Shown here in pieces: positions 36,491-48,223 of a DNA stretch of 64,000 nt. The stretch comes from an uncultured Marivita sp. Its GTDB lineage: Bacteria > Pseudomonadota > Alphaproteobacteria > Rhodobacterales > Rhodobacteraceae. The stretch covers positions 806,001 to 870,000 of the forward strand of contig NZ_CANKYW010000001.1 in assembly GCF_947488135.1 (NCBI RefSeq), written 5' to 3'. The first letter of the stretch is position 1. Each line of letters starts with the position of its first letter. Below the pieces are notes generated by a model, which saw only the letters and a program-made list of their open reading frames with translations, searched no databases and was not told the DNA's origin. The position numbers and the translations under genes are program-made.

Positions 36491-37468
36491 ATGAAACTTC
36501 GGACACTCGGTTCGGCGATTGCGGTTGGTGTGGGTGTGATGGCCGGGGCCGCGATGGCGGAATACCCAGAACGCCCCATCAACATGATCATTCCTTACGG
36601 CGCGGGCGGGGCGACGGACATCTCCGCACGCACCATCGCAGAGCCTCTGGGCACGGCGGTCGGTCAGGCCCTTGTTATGGCCAACGTCACCGGTGCAGGC
36701 GGCGCGACTGGATCGGTGGCGGTGCAGAACGCCAAGCCAGACGGTTACACGATGCTGTTTGCACGGGTCGGATCGCATTCCGTGAACCCGGCGATGAAAG
36801 CGACCTTGCCCTACACGCTGGATGATTTCCGCTTCGTGACCGTCTACGAGATCAACCCCGTGGCCTGCGCCGTGCGCCCGGACAGCGGGATCGAGTCGAT
36901 GGACGATCTGATCGCCAAGGTGAACGAGGGTGGAGTCAGCTATTCGTCCTCGGGTGTCGGATCATTGCTGCACCTTGCCGGTGCGATGGTGCTCAAGGAA
37001 TTCGGAGTGGAAAACCCGCTCGAGCAGGCAACGCATATTCCGCAGAAGGGCGGCGGTGAAGCTGCAACCGCGGTTCTGAACGGAACGGCGACGTTCATCT
37101 GCACGAACTCCTCGGCGCTGGCCAATTTCGTGGCAAACAACCAGCTCAAGCCGCTCATGGTGACGACGCAGGACCCGGTCGAAGGCTTCGACGTGCCGAC
37201 CGCGAACGATCTGGGCAAGCCGCGCCTGAACCAGCTTGTCGGCTGGACCGGCATCGCAGGGCCCGACGGGCTTCCCGATGATGTCGCGGCCATATGGGGT
37301 GAGTGGATGGCGACCGCCACGCAGGACGCCAAGTTCCGCGAGACGATGGAATCCGTGGGCTCGGTCATCACTTTGATGAGCCCGGACGAGGCCAACGCCT
37401 TCATCGAAGAGCAGTACAACACGTTCAAGGCTCTGGTGGACGAACTGGGGATGCGGGTCGAGGGGTGA
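36491..37468 (+). CDS. Tripartite tricarboxylate transporter substrate-binding protein (TctC/Bug family)
   Basis: YPERPINMIIPYGAGGATDISARTIAEPL, NVTGAGGATGSVAV. Confidence 0.94.
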   Translation: MKLRTLGSAIAVGVGVMAGAAMAEYPERPINMIIPYGAGGATDISARTIAEPLGTAVGQALVMANVTGAGGATGSVAVQNAKPDGYTMLFARVGSHSVNPAMKATLPYTLDDFRFVTVYEINPVACAVRPDSGIESMDDLIAKVNEGGVSYSSSGVGSLLHLAGAMVLKEFGVENPLEQATHIPQKGGGEAATAVLNGTATFICTNSSALANFVANNQLKPLMVTTQDPVEGFDVPTANDLGKPRLNQLVGWTGIAGPDGLPDDVAAIWGEWMATATQDAKFRETMESVGSVITLMSPDEANAFIEEQYNTFKALVDELGMRVEG

Positions 37469-37548
37469 TCGCTGATCCCTTGATCTGAGCCTGACTTGCG
37501 CCGGGGCCCTTGGGTCTCGGCGTTTCCACCTGCGGAGCGTCCCTGTCC

Positions 37549-38046
37549 ATGTCTGAGAAATCCTTGCACCTGCGCCTCGGGATCATCGTATCCCTGTTCG
37601 CGCTTTTCCTTGTTTTCTACGCCATTCCTTCCTTCGTGTTCGCCCCGTCGAACGTGCGCAACATCATCCTGTCACCGGTGTTCTGGCCCTACGTTCTGGC
37701 CGGTTTGACCGGGACCATCGGTCTTGGCTTGGTGTTCAACGCGCTTACCTCGGCACCGGACACTCCGTTCGACGATGAAGAAAGCGTGCATCCCGAAGGC
37801 AGCGCGCCCTGGATGCGGCTGGCCGCGTTGGCGGTCATCATGGTGCTGGTCATGTTCGGCTTACCGCGCCTTGGCATGGTCTGGACCGCGATGCTGGCCT
37901 TTGCGGCCTGCGCGTTCCTGTTCCGCACCCGCCATCCGATCGTCGCTGTGATCTGCGCGGTGGTGGTGCCGCTCTTGCTCTACGCCTTCTTCGCGCATGT
38001 CGCGGGTGTGGCGATCCCGCAGGGCAACTTCGTGAGGCTGCCATGA
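37549..38046 (+). CDS. Tripartite tricarboxylate transporter TctB family small membrane protein
   Basis: Four-TM small protein between tctC and tctA; start moved to ATG 37549. Confidence 0.85.
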   Translation: MSEKSLHLRLGIIVSLFALFLVFYAIPSFVFAPSNVRNIILSPVFWPYVLAGLTGTIGLGLVFNALTSAPDTPFDDEESVHPEGSAPWMRLAALAVIMVLVMFGLPRLGMVWTAMLAFAACAFLFRTRHPIVAVICAVVVPLLLYAFFAHVAGVAIPQGNFVRLP

Positions 38047-39533
38047 GCCTGTTGGACAGCCTTGCCGCGGGCTTTGCGCTTGTCGGGAATTTCGAAGCGT
38101 TTTTCATGCTGTTCTGCGGTCTGGTGATCGGCGTCGTGGCGGGCGCGATCCCGGGCCTGTCGGCCACGATGGCGGTGGCGCTGACGCTGCCGTTCACCTT
38201 TGCGATGACGCCGATCAACGCGATCCTGCTGTTGCTTGGGGTCTACAAGGGCGGCATCTTCGGCGGCTCGATCCCGGCAATTCTCATCAAGACGCCCGGA
38301 ACACCCGCGTCGTCGGCGACGATCCTCGACGGGCACCCGATGGCCGAGCGGGGTGAGGCGGGCAGGGCGCTGGGCATGGCGCTTTATGCGTCCTGCACGG
38401 CGGATGCGGTGTCGAACCTTGCGCTGATCCTCTTTGCCGGATGGCTTGCGTCCTTTGCGCTCAACTTCGGGCCGCCCGAGTTCTTTGCGCTGATCCTGTT
38501 CTCGCTCACCATCATCGCGGGCGTGTCGGGCGAAAGCCTGCTGCGCGGCGCGTTGTCGGCTTTGGCCGGGCTGCTGCTGGCGACGGTAGGGCTTGATCTG
38601 GTCTACGGGACCAACCGCTTTACCTTCGGCGATCCGAACATGATGGGCGGGCTGAATTTCATCGCTGTTCTGATCGGTCTCTTCGCTATCCCCGAGATCA
38701 TCGCGATGGCGTGGAACCCGGTCGCGCATCTGGGGCGCACGCGGGCCTTGGGCAAATCGCGCTGCACCTTTGCCGACTACGCGCGCAGCTTCAAAAGCAT
38801 CATCCGGGGCAGCATGATCGGCGTGTTCCTGGGCTCCATCCCCGGGATCGGGGCGGCGCCTGCGGCCTTCCTCAGCTATTCCGAAGCGCGGCGCACGTCG
38901 AAGAACAAGGCGAATTTCGGCAAGGGCGAGATCGAGGGCGTCGCGGCATCCGAGGCGGGCAACAACGGCGTGGCGGGCGCCACGCTCATCCCGCTGCTGG
39001 CGCTGGGCGTGCCGGGGGACGTGATCACGGCCATCATCATCGGGGCCTTCATGGTGCATGGGCTGCAACCCGGTCCGATGATGTTTATCCTCAACGTGGA
39101 TATCATCTACGGCCTCTTTATCGGCCTGATCGTGAGTTCGGTGTTCCTGCTCGTCGTCGGATCGGTGGCGATCCGGGGGTTCCGCTTCGTAGCGGATGTG
39201 CCCAAGCGGATCCTGATGCCGGGGGTTCTGATCCTGTGCATCTATGGTGTGTTCGCGGTGAACAACAACATCTTCGACGTGGGTGTGATGTTCGTCATGG
39301 GGTGGCTCGGCTACATCATGATGCGCAACCGCATCCCGGCGGCGCCATTCCTGATTGCCTTCATCCTTGGCCCGCTGCTGGAGGACAATTTCCGCCAGTC
39401 GATGCTGATGTCGGGCAGTGATCCAAGCATCCTCTTCCGGGGGCCGATCACCTGGTTCTTCTGGTTCCTGACTTGCCTGACCGTGTTCGCCATCACCCGC
39501 AGCACGCTGCGCAAGAAGGTGCCGCTCAGTTGA
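38043..39533 (+). CDS. Tripartite tricarboxylate transporter permease (TctA)
   Basis: GVVAGAIPGLSATMAVALTLPFTF, GVYKGGIFGGSIPAILIKTPGTPAS, LGSIPGIGAAPAAFLSY. Confidence 0.96.
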   Translation: MSLLDSLAAGFALVGNFEAFFMLFCGLVIGVVAGAIPGLSATMAVALTLPFTFAMTPINAILLLLGVYKGGIFGGSIPAILIKTPGTPASSATILDGHPMAERGEAGRALGMALYASCTADAVSNLALILFAGWLASFALNFGPPEFFALILFSLTIIAGVSGESLLRGALSALAGLLLATVGLDLVYGTNRFTFGDPNMMGGLNFIAVLIGLFAIPEIIAMAWNPVAHLGRTRALGKSRCTFADYARSFKSIIRGSMIGVFLGSIPGIGAAPAAFLSYSEARRTSKNKANFGKGEIEGVAASEAGNNGVAGATLIPLLALGVPGDVITAIIIGAFMVHGLQPGPMMFILNVDIIYGLFIGLIVSSVFLLVVGSVAIRGFRFVADVPKRILMPGVLILCIYGVFAVNNNIFDVGVMFVMGWLGYIMMRNRIPAAPFLIAFILGPLLEDNFRQSMLMSGSDPSILFRGPITWFFWFLTCLTVFAITRSTLRKKVPLS

Positions 39534-40944
39534 GATCTTCGAGGAGACGCCCGTGACGGCGCGTCTCTTCGATGACCTGACCGAAGGTGGTCAGCCCGCG
39601 CGCCTCGAGCATCGGCAGCATCCTGACCAGCACCTCGGCGGTGGCACGCGCATCCCCCAAGGCCGTGTGGCGCAGATCGTTCGGGATGGTGACGTTCAAC
39701 CGCTCGCACAGCGCGTCCAGCGTGTGACGTTCGCTGGCCCCGAACAGCACGGCGGACAAGAGGACCGTATCGAGGATAGGGTGATCCCAAGTGACGCCGG
39801 TGTCCTTCGCCTGACGGTGCAGAAACGCCATGTCGAAGGGCGCGTTATGCGCGACGATCACCGCATCGCGGGAAAAGTCGTGGAACCGTTTTGCGACCAC
39901 GCGGATGTCCGGCTTCCCGCGCACCATCGCATCCGTGACCTTGTGCACCTTGGTCGAGGCGGGCGGGATCGGGCGACCGGGATCGACGAGTTGGTTGATG
40001 ACCTCGCCCTCGATGATGCGCCCGTTCAGAACGCGAACGGCGCCAAGCTGCACCACATCGTCCTTGTGCGGCAGAAGCCCGGTGGTTTCGGTGTCGAAGA
40101 CCGAAAAGCAGAGCGAGCGTATCGGGCGGTCGAGGATGTGCATCTCGGCCGCGCCCCGATGCTGGTCCAGCAGGTCGAAATCATAGACAAGCGGTCGCGA
40201 CGCGTCGGGTGAGATATCGAGCGTCTGGCTGTCGATGATCATCAGGTAGCCGCCGCCCTCCATCGGTTTCAGCTTGGTGTCGAAGCTCTGCGTGCCGTCA
40301 TGGGATTGCGCGGTGAAGCTGACATCCTTGCCCGTCCGGCCAAGCTTGCTTACCGCCGCGCCAAGGCTTTTGGCGTCGAAATATTCGGTGATCGACGCGT
40401 TGAGCCGTGCGACGCCCAACTGGGCCAGCACCTCGGCGGCCTGTCCGTCGTAAAGCACGATCTGCCCCGTGGGGCCGACAAGGATCGTGGCCACCGGGAT
40501 CTCGGTCAGAAGCGCGGTCAGGCGTGCCTTTTCTGCAGACAGGCGCGCGGTTTCGCTGGCAATCGCCTGTGCCGTGCTGACGGCGGTTTCGTTGAGTTGC
40601 CGCGTCACCGCCGACGCAGCGGGGGCCAGATCGCCAAGATACCGCGCCGCGGTCATGTCCAGCTCACCCGCGACCCCGGCATGGGCGCGCGAGCGCATCT
40701 GCGAGGCCAGCCGTTCGATGGGTTTGGCGACGTTTTCGTCAAAGAGCAGCCAGACCCCGGCGGTCAGCGCAAGGATCAGGAACGCGGCGAGGATCGCGGC
40801 GAAGGTGAAGCCGTTGGCCGCCGTGGTCTCGAGCGCGCGACCGTAGCCGAACCACAGCGCGAGGCCGACCGAGGCCAGACCGCCGAGGCCCAGCAGAACG
40901 AAAAACAGGAAGATGCGGGTGCGCAGGCTGAGGCTCGAAAACAT
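39526..40944 (-). CDS. Membrane-anchored sensor-like protein fused to DnaQ-family 3'-5' exonuclease
   Basis: Two N-terminal TMs, HAMP-like linker, PAS-like ILVGPTGQIVLYDGQAAEVL, then exonuclease motifs FSVFDTETTGLLP, VAHNAPFDMAFL, RHTALGDARATAEVL. Start at ATG 40944. Confidence 0.86.
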   Translation of the reverse strand: MFSSLSLRTRIFLFFVLLGLGGLASVGLALWFGYGRALETTAANGFTFAAILAAFLILALTAGVWLLFDENVAKPIERLASQMRSRAHAGVAGELDMTAARYLGDLAPAASAVTRQLNETAVSTAQAIASETARLSAEKARLTALLTEIPVATILVGPTGQIVLYDGQAAEVLAQLGVARLNASITEYFDAKSLGAAVSKLGRTGKDVSFTAQSHDGTQSFDTKLKPMEGGGYLMIIDSQTLDISPDASRPLVYDFDLLDQHRGAAEMHILDRPIRSLCFSVFDTETTGLLPHKDDVVQLGAVRVLNGRIIEGEVINQLVDPGRPIPPASTKVHKVTDAMVRGKPDIRVVAKRFHDFSRDAVIVAHNAPFDMAFLHRQAKDTGVTWDHPILDTVLLSAVLFGASERHTLDALCERLNVTIPNDLRHTALGDARATAEVLVRMLPMLEARGLTTFGQVIEETRRHGRLLEDLN

Positions 40945-40948
40945 CGCG

Positions 40949-41449
40949 TCACCCCCGGTCACAGACGCCGCTGACGATGGGATCGTCTGCGGTGGTGTCG
41001 CGCCATACCGGATCGCCGCCATCGCCGAAGGCAGGATCGGCCCTCTGGCCGGTCCGGCAGTTCACCATAAGCTCGACCGACTGAACGGTGCCCCAGCGAC
41101 GGAAGAAATAGACGTCGGCCATGAAGAGGTTTTCGTCCTCGGAGTTGCTGCGCACATTGCCGGTATCCAGCGCGATGAAACGGTCGGTGTAGGGCGCGAG
41201 ATAGGTCCACGGGCGATAGAAGGCGGTGCTGTCGGCGGTCTGCACCACCTGAAGACCCTCGGGCAGCGCCTCGGCCGTGCGGTCGAACCAGCTGTATTCG
41301 CTGCTGATCGTCACGGCCAGCATTGCCGCACCCGCCGCCACGGGGATGAGCCATTTGGGCACCCGACCGCCTGCCGCGCGCGAGACAAGCATCATCACAC
41401 CGGCCCCGGCCACACCGGCCACGATCACCGCGATCAGTTCCAGAAACAT
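40949..41449 (-). CDS. Hypothetical membrane protein
   Basis: 167 aa, N-terminal TMs; between the DUF294 and exonuclease genes. Start taken at ATG 41449 (track start is TTG). Confidence 0.65.
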   Translation of the reverse strand: MFLELIAVIVAGVAGAGVMMLVSRAAGGRVPKWLIPVAAGAAMLAVTISSEYSWFDRTAEALPEGLQVVQTADSTAFYRPWTYLAPYTDRFIALDTGNVRSNSEDENLFMADVYFFRRWGTVQSVELMVNCRTGQRADPAFGDGGDPVWRDTTADDPIVSGVCDRG

Positions 41450-41474
41450 CCAACGTCCTCCCAAACGATGCGGG

Positions 41475-43297
41475 TCAGCTTAACATGCCGCGCCCGTGTC
41501 CCACTGCCGATTGCAGCGACTTTATCACCACAAACGCATCCCGTAGATGACTTCGCTCAAAGTCCGACAGCGATGTCGGGCTCAGGAAGTTGTCCGGCAC
41601 AACGCCCGCGCGGACCTGTTCGGCCTGATGCTCCAGCCGGGTCTCGGCGATGAGGTCATAGGCATCGCGCAGATCCTGTCCACCGGATTGGCTGAGCACG
41701 CCCGCCGCGATCGCCGCTTCGATCCGCGCCGCCGTGTTCACCGCGGTCAGCTTGCCCCGCAACGCGTAGATGCGGCCAAGGTCCACCACCGGCACCACGC
41801 CGTTGTGCTTGAGGTCGATCATGTTCTTGTGCTCGCCCGACCGGATCGTGGCGAAGCCGCGCAAGAGGCCCAGGGGCGGCGTGTGCTTGAGCGAGTTCGA
41901 CACCATATGCGCGACGAAGATCGAATTGGCCGATGCGCGGCGCAGGGTTTCGGCCTGCAAATCCTCGAACAAAGCCTTCGTGCCGCCGATGGGGCGCAGG
42001 TCGAACATGACGCTGGCCAGCATCTGCGCCTCGGGCGACGGTGTCTTGATCCAGCCCGCGAAATAGTCGCGCCAGACGCGTACGGGCTGGCGCCATCGCG
42101 GGTTCGTGGCCATCATGTCGCCCGGGCAATAGACATAGCCGCAGGTATCCAGACCGTCGCAGACGAACCGGGCCAAGGCTTCGAAATAGGGCATGTCGGC
42201 GTCGGTCACGCTGTCGTCTAGGAAGAGGCAATTGTCCTGATCGCTGACGCCGGTCTGTTCCTGCCGCCCCTGGCTGCCGCAGGCGAGCCACAGATACGGC
42301 ACCGGCGGTGCGCCAAGCTGCGCTTCGGCAAGGGCGAGAAGGCGGCGCGTCGCGGTGTCGGCGACGTCGGTGATGAGACGGGTGATGACCTCGTGCCGAT
42401 TGCCGCCCGCCACGAGTTGCGCCAGCAGTTGCGGGATGCGGTGGGTGACTTTCGCCATCGCCTCGGCGCTGTCGGAATGCGCGATCTCGGACACCAGCTC
42501 GGCCGAGCTGACCGCCTGGAACCGCGTCAGATCGGTTTGCGTGACGATGCCCACAAGCTTGTCCGCCTGGCACACGGGGATATGCCCGATGCGGCGCTCC
42601 ATCATCATGTGCAGAACGTCCGACCCGATGGCCGACGGGGGCAGGGTGACGGGATCGGGCGTCATCACGCGGGCGATGGGCGTGTCGAAGGGCAGGCCGT
42701 CCCCCACCACCTTGCCGGACAGATCGCGGATCGTGGCGATGCCCCGCAGCGCGTCGCCCTCGGCCACGCAGATCGACGACACATGCGCATCGCGCATCAG
42801 CCGTGCGGCGGTCTGAACATCGGTTTCGGGCGGGCAGGTCAGCGGCGATGTCGCCATCAGCGCCTCGACCCGGGTTGTGGCAAGGCTTGCCTTGTTCGGT
42901 TTTTCCATCCGGCTGCGGTTGAAAAAGCGCCGGAAGGCGGGGTCTTCGTTCATCGCCTGATGAAAGCGCGCAGCCGGAAGCAGCAGCAAGGTGCTGTCGG
43001 TTACGGCGCGGGCCGATGTCAGGCTGGCCCCGTCGCGCAAGAGACCCCGTTCCCCGAAGGAATTGCGCGGCCCCAGAAGCGAGATCGGAACATCGTGTTC
43101 GTCGCGGATCTCGACGTCGCCGGTGTAGACCACATACAGACCCGCAAGCGTGCTGCCGAGTTGATATACCTTGGCCCCCGCAGCGAAATCCTGCACGTCG
43201 ATGGTTTCGATCAGCGTTTGCAGGGCGGCGGGTTCCATCGCGTCATAGGGATGGATCGCCGACAGGAACTGCGCAATCGACTGGGGATCAAGCGTCA
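41475..43297 (-). CDS. Cyclic-nucleotide-binding/CBS/DUF294 nucleotidyltransferase-like protein
   Basis: cNMP-like GAKVYQLGSTLAGLYVVYTGDVEIRD; CBS repeats DAHVSSICVAEGDALRGIATIRD and RIGHIPVCQADKLVGIVTQTDLTRF; WLACGSQGRQEQTGVSDQDNCLF nucleotidyltransferase motif. Start ATG 43297 (or TTG 43319). Confidence 0.9.
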
Positions 43298-43321
43298 TTT
43301 CAGGGGTCCGTTCATCCAAGT

Positions 43322-43397: not shown

Positions 43398-45176
43398 TTA
43401 GTGGTCCTGAGCCGCGCCTGCACCCCGGGGGACGCGTACGCTTTCGACCAGCTCTTCGATTTCCTGCGGGATCGGCGATGTCATCTTCGACACGGTGAAG
43501 GCCACCGCGAAGTTGATGAGCGCGCCCACCGCGCCAAAGCTTGTCGACTGAACCGTGCCCAGAAGCGGGTTGGCATCGGTAAAGCTGTTGGTGTCGGGGA
43601 TGAAGAACCAGCCCTTGTGCAGGAAGATGTAGATCAGCGTCACGATCAGACCGGAAAGCATCCCGGCCACGGCACCCTTGTTGTTCACCTTCGTGAAGAT
43701 GCCCATCATCAGTGCCGGGAAGATCGACGCCGCCGCGAGACCAAAGGCCAAGGCCACGGTTTGCGCCGCAAAGCCCGGAGGGTTGAGACCCAGATAGGTC
43801 GCCACAGCGATTGCCACCGCCATCGCGATCCGCGCCGACAGAAGTTCGCCCTTCTCCGAGATGTTCGGGTTCAGCTGACCCTTGATCAGGTCGTGGCTCA
43901 CTGCCGAAGAGATCGCGAGCAGAAGGCCCGCCGCCGTGGACAGGGCCGCCGCAAGGCCGCCTGCCGCCACGAGACCGATCACCCAACCGGGAAGGTTGGC
44001 AATCTCGGGGTTGGCCAGAACCAGGATGTCGCGGTTGAAGTTGGTCAGCTCGTTGCCTTCCCAGCCATTCGCCGCCGCGCGTTCCTGCATCGCCGGGTTC
44101 GCATCGTTGTAGTACTGGATGCGGCCGTCGCCGTTCTTGTCTTCCCAGCCCAGAAGGCCGGTCTGCTGCCACGTCGCCATCCAGTCATATGCCGGATCGG
44201 TTTCGATCTGCTCGACCGATACGGCCTCGCCGCCCGTGCCGTTGGGCCAGAACTGTTCGGTGATGTTGAGACGCGCCATCGCACCAACAGCCGGAGCCGT
44301 GAGGTAGAGCAGCGCGATGAAGACCAGCGCCCAGCCAGCGGACCAACGGGCGTCAGCCACGCGCGGCACGGTGAAGAAGCGCATGATCACGTGCGGCAGA
44401 CCCGCCGTACCGATCATCAGCGACAGGGTGAAGAGCACCATGTTGAACGTGTCGCCGTGGTGGGCCGTGTACTCGTTAAAGCCAAGCTCGGCCACGATCT
44501 GGTCGAGCTTCGCCAGCAGCGGCTCACCGGATTCGACATTGCCGAAGAGACCCAGACCCGGGATCGGGTTGCCGGTCAGCTGGAGCGAGATGAAGACGGC
44601 CGGGATGGTGTAGGCCATGATCAGCACGACATATTGCGCCACCTGCGTGTAGGTCACGCCCTTCATGCCGCCGAACACCGCGTAGGCAAAGACCACACAG
44701 GCGCCGATCAGAAGACCTGCCGTGTTGCTGACTTCCAGGAAGCGGCCAAAGGCCACGCCCACGCCGGTCATCTGGCCGATGACGTAGGTGAGCGACGCCA
44801 CCAGAAGGCTGATCACTGCGACCATGCGGGCGGTCGGGCTGTAGAACCGGTCGCCAATGAACTCGGAGACGGTGTATTTGCCGAACTTGCGCAGGTAGGG
44901 CGCCAGCAGCAGCGCCAGCAGCACGTAGCCACCGGTCCAGCCCATCAGGTAGGTGGAGTTGTCATAGCCGGTAAAGGCAATGAGACCCGCCATCGAGATG
45001 AAGCTTGCCGCCGACATCCAGTCGGCAGCGGTCGCCATGCCGTTGGTGACGGGGTGGATGCCGCGACCGGCGGCGTAGAATTCCGACGTGGAGCCCGCGC
45101 GGGCCCAGATCGCGATGCCGATATAGAGCGCGAAAGACGCGCCCACGAACAGCAGGTTGATGGTAAACTGATCCAT
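43398..45176 (-). CDS. actP: Sodium:solute symporter, acetate/cation symporter (DUF4212-partnered subfamily)
   Basis: 592 aa SSS family; MATAADWMSAASFISMAGLIAFTGYD, LAAALSTAAGLLLAISSAVSHDLIKG. Confidence 0.9.
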   Translation of the reverse strand: MDQFTINLLFVGASFALYIGIAIWARAGSTSEFYAAGRGIHPVTNGMATAADWMSAASFISMAGLIAFTGYDNSTYLMGWTGGYVLLALLLAPYLRKFGKYTVSEFIGDRFYSPTARMVAVISLLVASLTYVIGQMTGVGVAFGRFLEVSNTAGLLIGACVVFAYAVFGGMKGVTYTQVAQYVVLIMAYTIPAVFISLQLTGNPIPGLGLFGNVESGEPLLAKLDQIVAELGFNEYTAHHGDTFNMVLFTLSLMIGTAGLPHVIMRFFTVPRVADARWSAGWALVFIALLYLTAPAVGAMARLNITEQFWPNGTGGEAVSVEQIETDPAYDWMATWQQTGLLGWEDKNGDGRIQYYNDANPAMQERAAANGWEGNELTNFNRDILVLANPEIANLPGWVIGLVAAGGLAAALSTAAGLLLAISSAVSHDLIKGQLNPNISEKGELLSARIAMAVAIAVATYLGLNPPGFAAQTVALAFGLAAASIFPALMMGIFTKVNNKGAVAGMLSGLIVTLIYIFLHKGWFFIPDTNSFTDANPLLGTVQSTSFGAVGALINFAVAFTVSKMTSPIPQEIEELVESVRVPRGAGAAQDH

Positions 45177-45181
45177 GGCGC

Positions 45182-45466
45182 TTATTCCTCCTCGACGCCG
45201 TATTCACGGTCGAGCTTGTTCATCCGCCAGGCGTAGAAGAAGATCAGCGCCAGAAAGACGAGGATCGACCCCTGTTGGGCGAACCAGAACCCGATATCGG
45301 TGCCACCGACCTCGATGCCGGACAGCATGGGGCGCAGCAGGATGCCGAACCCGAATGAACAGATCGCCCAGATCACCAGGCTGATCAGAATGATGCGCAC
45401 ATTGGCCGACCAGTAGCCCGCATCGGACTTCTGACCAGCCTGCGCTGTTTGTGTGTGGTCCGCCAT
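45182..45466 (-). CDS. DUF4212 small subunit of sodium/substrate symporter
   Basis: YWSANVRIILISLVIWAICSFGFGILLRPML...GFWFAQQGSILVFLALIFFYAWRMNKLDREYGVEEE. Start set at 45466. Confidence 0.9.
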   Translation of the reverse strand: MADHTQTAQAGQKSDAGYWSANVRIILISLVIWAICSFGFGILLRPMLSGIEVGGTDIGFWFAQQGSILVFLALIFFYAWRMNKLDREYGVEEE

Positions 45467-45493
45467 GGCGGCTCCTCCTCTTCCTCCGTTGGA

Positions 45494-45515
45494 CGTGCCC
45501 CGGTCCGGGGGCACG
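45494..45515. terminator. Candidate hairpin between adk and the DUF4212 gene
   Basis: CGTGCCCC-GGTCCG-GGGGCACG; second hairpin CCACCGC-TCAG-GCGGTGG (45551-45568) over the adk stop. Confidence 0.4.
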
Positions 45516-45557
45516 AATTCCGTGTGGCGCGGCACCAGGGCCGCGATAGGCCACCGC

Positions 45558-46250
45558 TCAGGCGGTGGCGCGTCGAACGATGCCGCCGAGCGTTTCGGCG
45601 ATCTCGTCAATGGCGCCCATCGCATCGACGCGGGCAAGCGCGCCCTGTGTGTCGTAGAATGCGATCAGCGGGGCTGTCTGGGCATGATATGCATCAAGCC
45701 GGGCTGCGACCGTTTCCGCGTTGTCATCCGCGCGGCGTTTGAAATCAGTGCCTTGGCACTTGTCGCATTGGCCTTTGGTCGTAGGCGCCTTGAACGTGTC
45801 GTGATAGCCTTCGCCGCAGGTGCCGCAAGTGAACCGGCCCGAAATCCGCTCCACCATCGCCGCATCGTCGACATCGAGGCTGATCGCCGCGTCGATCTTC
45901 TGGCCGGATTCGGCCAGCAGCGTATCGAGCGCCTCCGCCTGCACCGTGGTGCGCGGGAACCCGTCGAGGATCACGCCGCGCGCGCAATCGGGGTCGGCCA
46001 GCCGGTCGCGCAGGATCGCGATGACGATGTCGTCGCTGACCAGCTCACCGGCTTCCATGACCGCCTTGGCGGCATTGCCCGCATCGGTGCCTGCCGCCAC
46101 GGCGGCGCGCAGCAGGTCGCCGGTGCTCAGTTGGACAAGGCCGAACTGCTCTTCCAGCATCCGGGCCTGCGTGCCTTTGCCGGCCCCCGGGGGGCCAAGC
46201 AGGATCAGGACAGGGGCGGTGGTGGGTGTCGTGCTTCCGTCCATCGTCAT
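45558..46250 (-). CDS. adk: Adenylate kinase with Cys4 (zinc-type) lid
   Basis: LILLGPPGAGKGTQARMLEEQFGLVQLSTGDLLRAAV, DGFPRTTVQAEAL, lid CGTC...CDKC. Confidence 0.96.
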   Translation of the reverse strand: MTMDGSTTPTTAPVLILLGPPGAGKGTQARMLEEQFGLVQLSTGDLLRAAVAAGTDAGNAAKAVMEAGELVSDDIVIAILRDRLADPDCARGVILDGFPRTTVQAEALDTLLAESGQKIDAAISLDVDDAAMVERISGRFTCGTCGEGYHDTFKAPTTKGQCDKCQGTDFKRRADDNAETVAARLDAYHAQTAPLIAFYDTQGALARVDAMGAIDEIAETLGGIVRRATA

Positions 46251-48223
46251 CACCCCTTGTTCATCCGGTTTTCGATGAGGTCATCGACGACGGAGGGGTC
46301 AGCGAGTGTGGATGTGTCGCCCAATGCGCCGTAGTCGTTTTCGGCGATCTTGCGCAGGATGCGGCGCATGATCTTGCCGGAGCGGGTTTTCGGCAGGCCA
46401 GGCGCCCATTGGATGAGGTCCGGCGACGCGATTGGGCCGATCTCGGTGCGGACCCAGGTGCGCAGCTCCTTGGTGAGCTCGTCGCTGGGCTCCACCCCGT
46501 TCATCAGGGTGACGTAGCAATAGATGCCCTGACCCTTGATGGCGTGCGGGTAGCCCACCACGGCGGCCTCGGCCACTTTGGCGTGCGCGACCAGCGCCGA
46601 TTCCACCTCGGCCGTGCCCATGCGGTGGCCCGACACATTGATCACATCGTCCACACGGCCGGTGATCCAGTAATCCCCGTCGGCGTCGCGCTTGCAGCCG
46701 TCGCCCGAGAAGTAATAGCCCTTGTAGTCCGAGAAATAGGTCTTCTCGAACCGCTCGTGATCGCCCCAGACGGTGCGCATCTGTCCCGGCCAGCTGTCCT
46801 TGAGCGCCAGCACGCCCTCGGTCGGGGAGCTGTGGATCTCCTCGCCCGATTGCGGGTCGAGCACCACGGGCTGCACCCCGAAGAACGGCTTCATCGCAGC
46901 CCCCGGTTTGGTGGCATGCGCGCCCGGCAGCGGGGTCAGCAGGTGCCCGCCGGTTTCCGTCTGCCACCATGTATCGACGATCGGGCAGCGGCCCCCGCCC
47001 ACCACGTCGTTGTACCAGTTCCACGCCTCGGGGTTGATCGGTTCGCCCACCGTGCCGAGGATTCGCAGGGAGCTTAGATCGCATTTCGTTACGAACTCGT
47101 TACCCTGGCCCATCAAGGCGCGGATGGCCGTCGGTGCGGTGTAGAACTGGTTAACGGAATGTTTCTCGCAGACCTGCCAGAAGCGCGACGCGTCCGGATA
47201 GGTCGGCACACCTTCAAACATCACGGTGGTCGCGCCATTGGCCAGCGGCCCGTAGACGATATAGCTGTGGCCGGTGACCCAGCCGACATCGGCGGTGCAC
47301 CAGTAAACGTCGCCTTCATGATAATCGAAGGTAATTTCGTGGGTCAGGGCGGCGTAAACCAAATATCCACCACTTGAGTGCACAACCCCCTTGGGCTGAC
47401 CGGTCGAGCCTGATGTGTAGAGGATGAAAAGGGGGTCTTCGGCATTCATTTCGGCAGGGGCGGAATAGTCATCCGCTTCCAGCGCCATCTCGTTGTAGTC
47501 GTAATCGCGGTCGGCGATCCAGGTGGTCTGGCCGCCGGTGCGCTTCACGACAAGGCATTTCACCGTGTCCTTGCAGTGCAGCAGGGCGGCATCGGCATTG
47601 GACTTGAGCGGCGTCTTGCGCCCGCCGCGCGGGGCTTCATCGGCGGTGATGACGACCTTGGCGTCGGACCCGTTGATGCGGGCGGACAGCGCGTCGGGCG
47701 AGAAGCCCGCGAAGACGATGGAGTGGATCGCCCCGATGCGGGCGCAGGCCAGCATGGCATAGGCGGCTTCGGGGATCATCGGCAGGTAGATCACCACGCG
47801 GTCGCCTTTGCGCACGCCCAGCGTTTCCAAGATATTGGCCATCTTGCAGACGCTGCGGTGCAGGTCGTTGTAGGTGATGTGCTTGGCCGGCTCGTTCGGA
47901 TCGTCCGGCTCGAAGATGATCGCGGTCTGGTCGCCGCGCGTCTCAAGGTGCCGGTCGACGCAGTTCGCCGCCACGTTCAGCGTGCCATCGGCGAACCAGT
48001 TGATCTTGACCCGTCCGAGGGTGAAATCGACATCCTTCACCTGCGTCGGCGCCTTCATCCAGTCCAGACGCTCCGCAGCCTCCGCCCAGAACCCCTCCGG
48101 ATCGGACACCGACCGCGCATACATCTCCTCGTAACGCGACGCATCGACATGGGCTTTCGCAACCAAATCCGCCGAAGGCGGGTACACAGCTGTGCCGTCA
48201 TTGGTGGTGGTTTGATCGTTCAT
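46250..48223 (-). CDS. acs: Acetyl-CoA synthetase
   Basis: 657 aa; [54 protein letters not shown]. Confidence 0.97.

Follow-up and report, generated by a model that had tools for sequence, protein, structure and literature searches.

RESULTS

The gene at 39526-40944 encodes a predicted membrane sensor with a DEDDh exonuclease domain

At the end of an operon that starts with acs, the window analyzed here (64,000 nucleotides from an uncultured Marivita sp.) carries a gene that joins a predicted membrane sensor to an exonuclease, which raises the question of what such an output might do beside genes for acetate metabolism. The open reading frame (ORF) was confirmed at 39526-40944 on the minus strand and encodes 472 amino acids (aa) from the ATG at 40944. 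An alternative in-frame ATG at 41022, upstream of the gene start, falls within the preceding gene, and the conserved N termini of the relatives start at residue 1 of the 472-aa protein, in support of the ATG at 40944.

An AF2 model computed from an alignment of 50 relatives (pLDDT 87, pTM 0.81) shows, in this order, two transmembrane (TM) helices, a long helix with a HAMP-like break, a PAS fold (residues 151 to 238), and the exonuclease (residues 279 to 462; 39559-40110; these and the following coordinates are on the minus strand). TM helix 1 (residues 7 to 39; 40828-40926) and TM helix 2 (residues 42 to ∼68; 40741-40821) are also indicated by hydropathy. Only a few residues lie between them, so that a periplasmic sensor domain is lacking and any signal would be sensed within the membrane or on its cytoplasmic side. 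Helix 2 runs unbroken into the first helix of the HAMP-like linker (residues 69 to 120; 40585-40740), which leads into a helix at residues 106 to 147 and then into the PAS domain (residues 148 to 240; 40225-40503). The N-terminal region, searched by itself, returned zero Pfam matches, even at an E value of 10. The PAS assignment comes from the modeled beta-beta-alpha-alpha-beta-beta-beta topology and from several homologues that exceed the PF00989 cutoff; for HAMP, the best homologue match reached an E value of 0.056 in Pfam, and the segment is otherwise recognized by its two-helix-plus-connector topology alone.

The sole Pfam match of the protein is RNase_T (PF00929; E = 7e-35, residues 282 to 439, 121 bits against a cutoff of 24). 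The predicted catalytic residues D284 and E286 (DTETTG; 40087-40095), D371 (HNAPFD; 39832-39834), and H426 and D431 (HTALGDA; 39652-39669) are invariant in the 50-sequence alignment, and DEDDh is retained in 130 of the 131 long and short TM forms (see below) of the tree set. An apparent E at the D371 position in 17 soluble proteins may be a misalignment and was kept out of the argument. The full architecture is kept at 45 to 90% identity across dozens of genomes, which rules out chance, a fusion artifact, or a miscalled start. All segments are under purifying selection, with dN/dS values of ∼0.04 to 0.07 for the exonuclease and 0.08 to 0.12 for PAS at a dS near saturation; such conservation of the PAS and TM regions makes it likely that the sensor half gates the exonuclease.

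A sequence-only reading of this DNA had described a membrane protein of the sensor type whose output is an intact exonuclease and had proposed structure prediction as a check. The architecture was borne out by Pfam, the alignment, and the AF2 model, in which the TM helices, PAS fold, and exonuclease all appear; its HAMP-like segment holds as a topology, without a significant Pfam match. That reading knew of no characterized example, and an open-access literature search likewise turned up no characterized protein with a TM-HAMP-like-PAS-exonuclease architecture.

The protein is distinct from the replicative DnaQ epsilon

Foldseek showed that the exonuclease domain resembles the DinG, PolC, and DnaQ epsilon exonucleases, and by sequence it is closest to proofreading exonucleases of the DNA type (PolC, DinG). 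The window protein has the fold and the DEDDh residues in common with these enzymes but comes without a polymerase, helicase, or clamp partner and has a membrane sensor instead. It scored 107 bits against the equivalog cutoffs of 222.7 (TIGR01406) and 196 (PRK05711) and thus failed both, whereas the genome's own DnaQ epsilon (L287) scored 285 and 293 bits, respectively, above cutoff. Because a separate epsilon exists and the curated cutoffs were failed, we rejected the assignment as replicative DnaQ epsilon, and identification as a standard replication or repair factor, one of the outcomes named beforehand as fatal to the sensor proposal, did not come about. A defense system was also rejected, the PADLOC matches being generic DEDDh models and unnamed candidates only.

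Long relatives point to descent from a sensor kinase

Many relatives are long (∼690 to 830 aa, counted stop to stop), with ∼215 aa between PAS and exonuclease; such forms are found in Caldilineaceae (Chloroflexota) and among the alpha-, beta-, and deltaproteobacteria, including Rhodobacter capsulatus (L153). HisKA was weakly detected in some of them (L043, E = 5.5e-4), and where one was modeled with AF2 (pLDDT 82), the stretch between PAS and exonuclease folds into a helical hairpin and an alpha/beta domain. Among the top Foldseek matches of this long relative were WalK (E = 7e-16, 476 columns), VicK, LOV-HK, ThkA, and DivL. TM-HAMP-PAS histidine kinases of the WalK/VicK type share their N-terminal order with the window protein and align with the long relatives over HAMP-PAS-DHp-CA. 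The window protein differs from them in having neither a phospho-His nor any kinase core, DHp included, and in its exonuclease output. The H-box histidine is absent from every long member examined, so that these retain the kinase folds without the phospho-His, and neither type qualifies as a histidine kinase.

A gene for a single-domain CheY-like receiver (Response_reg, E = 2e-25) lies directly upstream at 58 of the 74 long loci and at 0 of the 56 short ones (Fisher P = 1.5e-22, ignoring shared ancestry). Receiver genes were counted by HMM, which replaced a strict regular expression that had missed many. At loci L068-L083 and at many of L147-L207, the CheY-like receiver is directly upstream of the exonuclease, beside a pseudo-kinase that lacks the phospho-His.

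In a tree of the exonuclease domain (rooted with DnaQ epsilon; several inner nodes are weak), most TM-bearing forms group together (support 0.99), the soluble forms linked to DUF294 are placed separately, and the window-type short forms are nested among the long ones. We read this as joint loss of the kinase remnant and the receiver in the lineage of the window protein, through an uncertain number of events. Since the long relatives have a kinase-like core and usually an upstream receiver, both gone in the window type, the exonuclease family is, as judged from sequences and models, derived from a sensor kinase. The earlier wording, that an exonuclease replaces the usual kinase output, is better put as derivation from a histidine kinase: its core degenerated, as in the long relatives, and in the window type disappeared along with the receiver gene.

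The exonuclease gene closes an acs-symporter-DUF294 operon

The operon is tightly spaced and transcribed from the minus strand in the order acs, adk, DUF4212, VC_2705 symporter, DUF294, small ORF, and exonuclease. It begins with an acetate-CoA ligase gene (acs; 46250-48223; TIGR02188, 1,003 bits), followed by a gene with profile matches to adenylate kinase (45558-46253), whose presence within an acs operon suits AMP recycling after acetate activation. The symporter small subunit (DUF4212; ORF as listed, 45182-45637) matches TIGR03647 at residues 75 to 150; the domain is the C-terminal half of the ORF, and the true start is therefore probably internal. Next come a VC_2705 family sodium/solute symporter (43398-45176; TIGR03648, 810 bits) and a protein with a cNMP-binding domain, two CBS domains, a DUF294 nucleotidyltransferase domain with an intact pol-beta motif (GSQGRQEQTGVSDQDN), and DUF294_C (41475-43319). 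The small predicted membrane protein (40949-41464), encoded 4 nucleotides upstream of the exonuclease gene, has no significant family; its gene is found beside the exonuclease or, in some other genomes, after the symporter. All these genes are on the minus strand. Tripartite tricarboxylate transporter genes (36491-39533; TctB and TctA by Pfam, with a TctC-like ORF at 36491) face the exonuclease gene in convergent orientation and share 8 nucleotides with its end.

Wide context was available for 40 same-family loci, and 39 of them show DUF294, symporter, and small ORF in the same order, the exception being L086; complete and end-truncated symporters were both counted, at the loci whose stretch extends far enough to include one.

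The exonuclease co-occurs with DUF294

The window thus holds an exonuclease-DUF294 pair of the PP_0354/PP_0353 type, with a 516-nucleotide ORF alone intervening. Among 150 same-family genomes, the exonuclease was found in 74, DUF294 in 73, and the symporter in 74. All 73 DUF294-bearing genomes carry the exonuclease (Fisher P = 8e-43 for this overlap, ignoring shared ancestry). The single genome with the exonuclease and without DUF294 (G087; locus L086, 4956-6296) is also missing the symporter, and its exonuclease has S-E-R-R-Q at the DEDDh positions, so that four of the five catalytic residues are lost. When Pseudomonadota were searched from the DUF294 side, an exonuclease was adjacent in 33 of 39 regions, nearby in 2, and absent from 4; the adjacent exonucleases are mostly soluble, and two are long TM forms with the receiver gene in between. 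Direct exonuclease-CBS-CBS-DUF294 fusions occur at L057 and L059 (the same places as L121 and L123). With ORFs taken stop to stop and a relaxed motif pattern that superseded a stricter first one, the pol-beta nucleotidyltransferase (NTase) motif of DUF294 is intact in 157 of 167 ORFs. Elsewhere, exonucleases of the family are joined to an EamA-type transporter, as judged by Pfam for L053 and by sequence for L054.

That the exonuclease is a partner of DUF294 is very probable and is the best-supported functional statement we can make. The sequence-only reading, which proposed a one-component signal protein, was partly upheld and missed this pairing in an acetate/pyruvate operon.

DISCUSSION

We favor, with somewhat better than even confidence, a membrane-anchored, PAS-controlled DEDDh hydrolase that descends from a histidine kinase and serves as the dedicated partner of DUF294 in a small-acid operon. 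The same DEDDh-DUF294 pairing is found in Pseudomonas, where PP_0353/PA3232 (RNase_T) lies beside PP_0354/PA3233 (CBS-DUF294) in the MxtR/ErdR (CrbS/CrbR) regulon and, as in the window operon, is linked to an actP-type symporter and acetate/pyruvate genes. By their published description, PP_0353 and PA3232 are soluble, without TM, PAS, or kinase remnant. In P. putida, where PP_0353 and PP_0354 are the soluble counterparts within the MxtR/ErdR regulon, the Δpp_0353 strain grew slowly on pyruvate, the Δpp_0354 (DUF294) strain did not, and acetate growth was impaired in neither (PMC9927547); this counterpart and its pyruvate phenotype had also escaped the earlier reading. PA3232-PA3235 are upregulated on propionate (PMC9765439), and P. 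fluorescens Pflu5625 (cAMP-binding, CBS, NTase) belongs to the CrbS/R regulon (PMC5715377).

The operon would allow small monocarboxylates (acetate, probably pyruvate) to be taken up and activated. On this reading, the exonuclease protein goes back to a TM-HAMP-PAS histidine kinase that gained an exonuclease at its C terminus; the kinase core then decayed, and the remnant core and receiver partner were lost subsequently in the window lineage. In the present protein, the TM/PAS module would sense a signal from the membrane or cytoplasm and gate the exonuclease accordingly. Like GlnD/GlnE, with which DUF294_C has been classed, the neighboring DUF294 is a pol-beta NTase with a GlnD/E-like C-terminal domain (PMC3710099), with sensor domains and a proposed write/erase logic. 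With its cNMP/CBS adenylate-sensor domains, it may modify a protein or RNA target with nucleotides that, in our leading guess, the exonuclease would take off. GlnD takes off UMP via its HD domain, whereas here a separate DEDDh protein would be the putative eraser. The DEDDh enzymes DnaQ epsilon and Orn cleave pNP-TMP, the p-nitrophenyl ester of TMP (PMC6768110 and its reference 34); as a phenolic NMP ester, it resembles nucleotidyl-tyrosine, and by this analogy we count it in favor of eraser chemistry.

Removal of a DUF294-placed nucleotide, with protein and RNA targets taken together, is a tentative proposal on the unlikely side, and its protein version, in which a kinase-derived receptor would strip NMP groups put by DUF294 on the symporter, Acs, or another protein, is rather doubtful. 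The lack of a pyruvate defect in Δpp_0354, unlike Δpp_0353, indicates that the exonuclease may not depend on DUF294 in that setting, and it argues for caution over DUF294-linked nucleotide removal. The close relationship to the DNA-type proofreading exonucleases PolC and DinG would favor a nucleic acid substrate, against the explanation that we consider best.

Such a substrate is central to a possible but unlikely alternative, a membrane-tethered exoribonuclease that would trim or degrade carbon-metabolism or operon mRNAs near the membrane under PAS control. As DUF294, with its intact pol-beta motif, may add 3′ tails, the pair would then be a tailing and trimming module. The fold lies near RNase T as well as the proofreading exonucleases, and mRNA degradation was proposed for PP_0353 by the P. 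putida authors (PMC9927547); however, neither an RNA-binding domain nor a degradosome link was seen, and the best matches are DNA exonucleases and not Orn or RNase T. We consider it improbable that the protein is a signaling-nucleotide hydrolase that clears a short linear dinucleotide or messenger bound by the cNMP/CBS domains of the DUF294 protein. The presence of these domains and the cleavage by the DEDDh enzyme Orn of short oligonucleotides and of the dinucleotide mimic pNP-TMP (PMC6768110) would fit, but the exonuclease groups with the DinG/PolC/epsilon types and not with Orn, and the operon genes that could be identified include no cyclase or messenger gene. An exonuclease for DNA repair or replication, membrane-bound and in this operon by happenstance, would suit the proximity to proofreading exonucleases but is highly improbable given the failed equivalog cutoffs, the genome's own epsilon, the operon, the co-occurrence, and the TM/PAS half.

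Returning to the kinase-derived partner of DUF294, the steady company of an exonuclease, a nucleotidyltransferase, and acetate/pyruvate uptake suggests a putative switch for small-acid metabolism in which one enzyme adds and the other removes. Co-occurrence that is near-perfect, together with the decayed copy in the sole exonuclease-bearing genome without DUF294, makes the partnership directly testable. The finding ties together the function of DUF294 proteins and the role that an exonuclease plays within the CrbS/MxtR acetate-pyruvate regulon, and it bears on whether a sensor kinase can become a receptor with a hydrolytic output. If the nucleotide-stripping receptor is true, bacteria would gain a nucleotidylylation switch that is gated at the membrane and has a DEDDh enzyme for its eraser.
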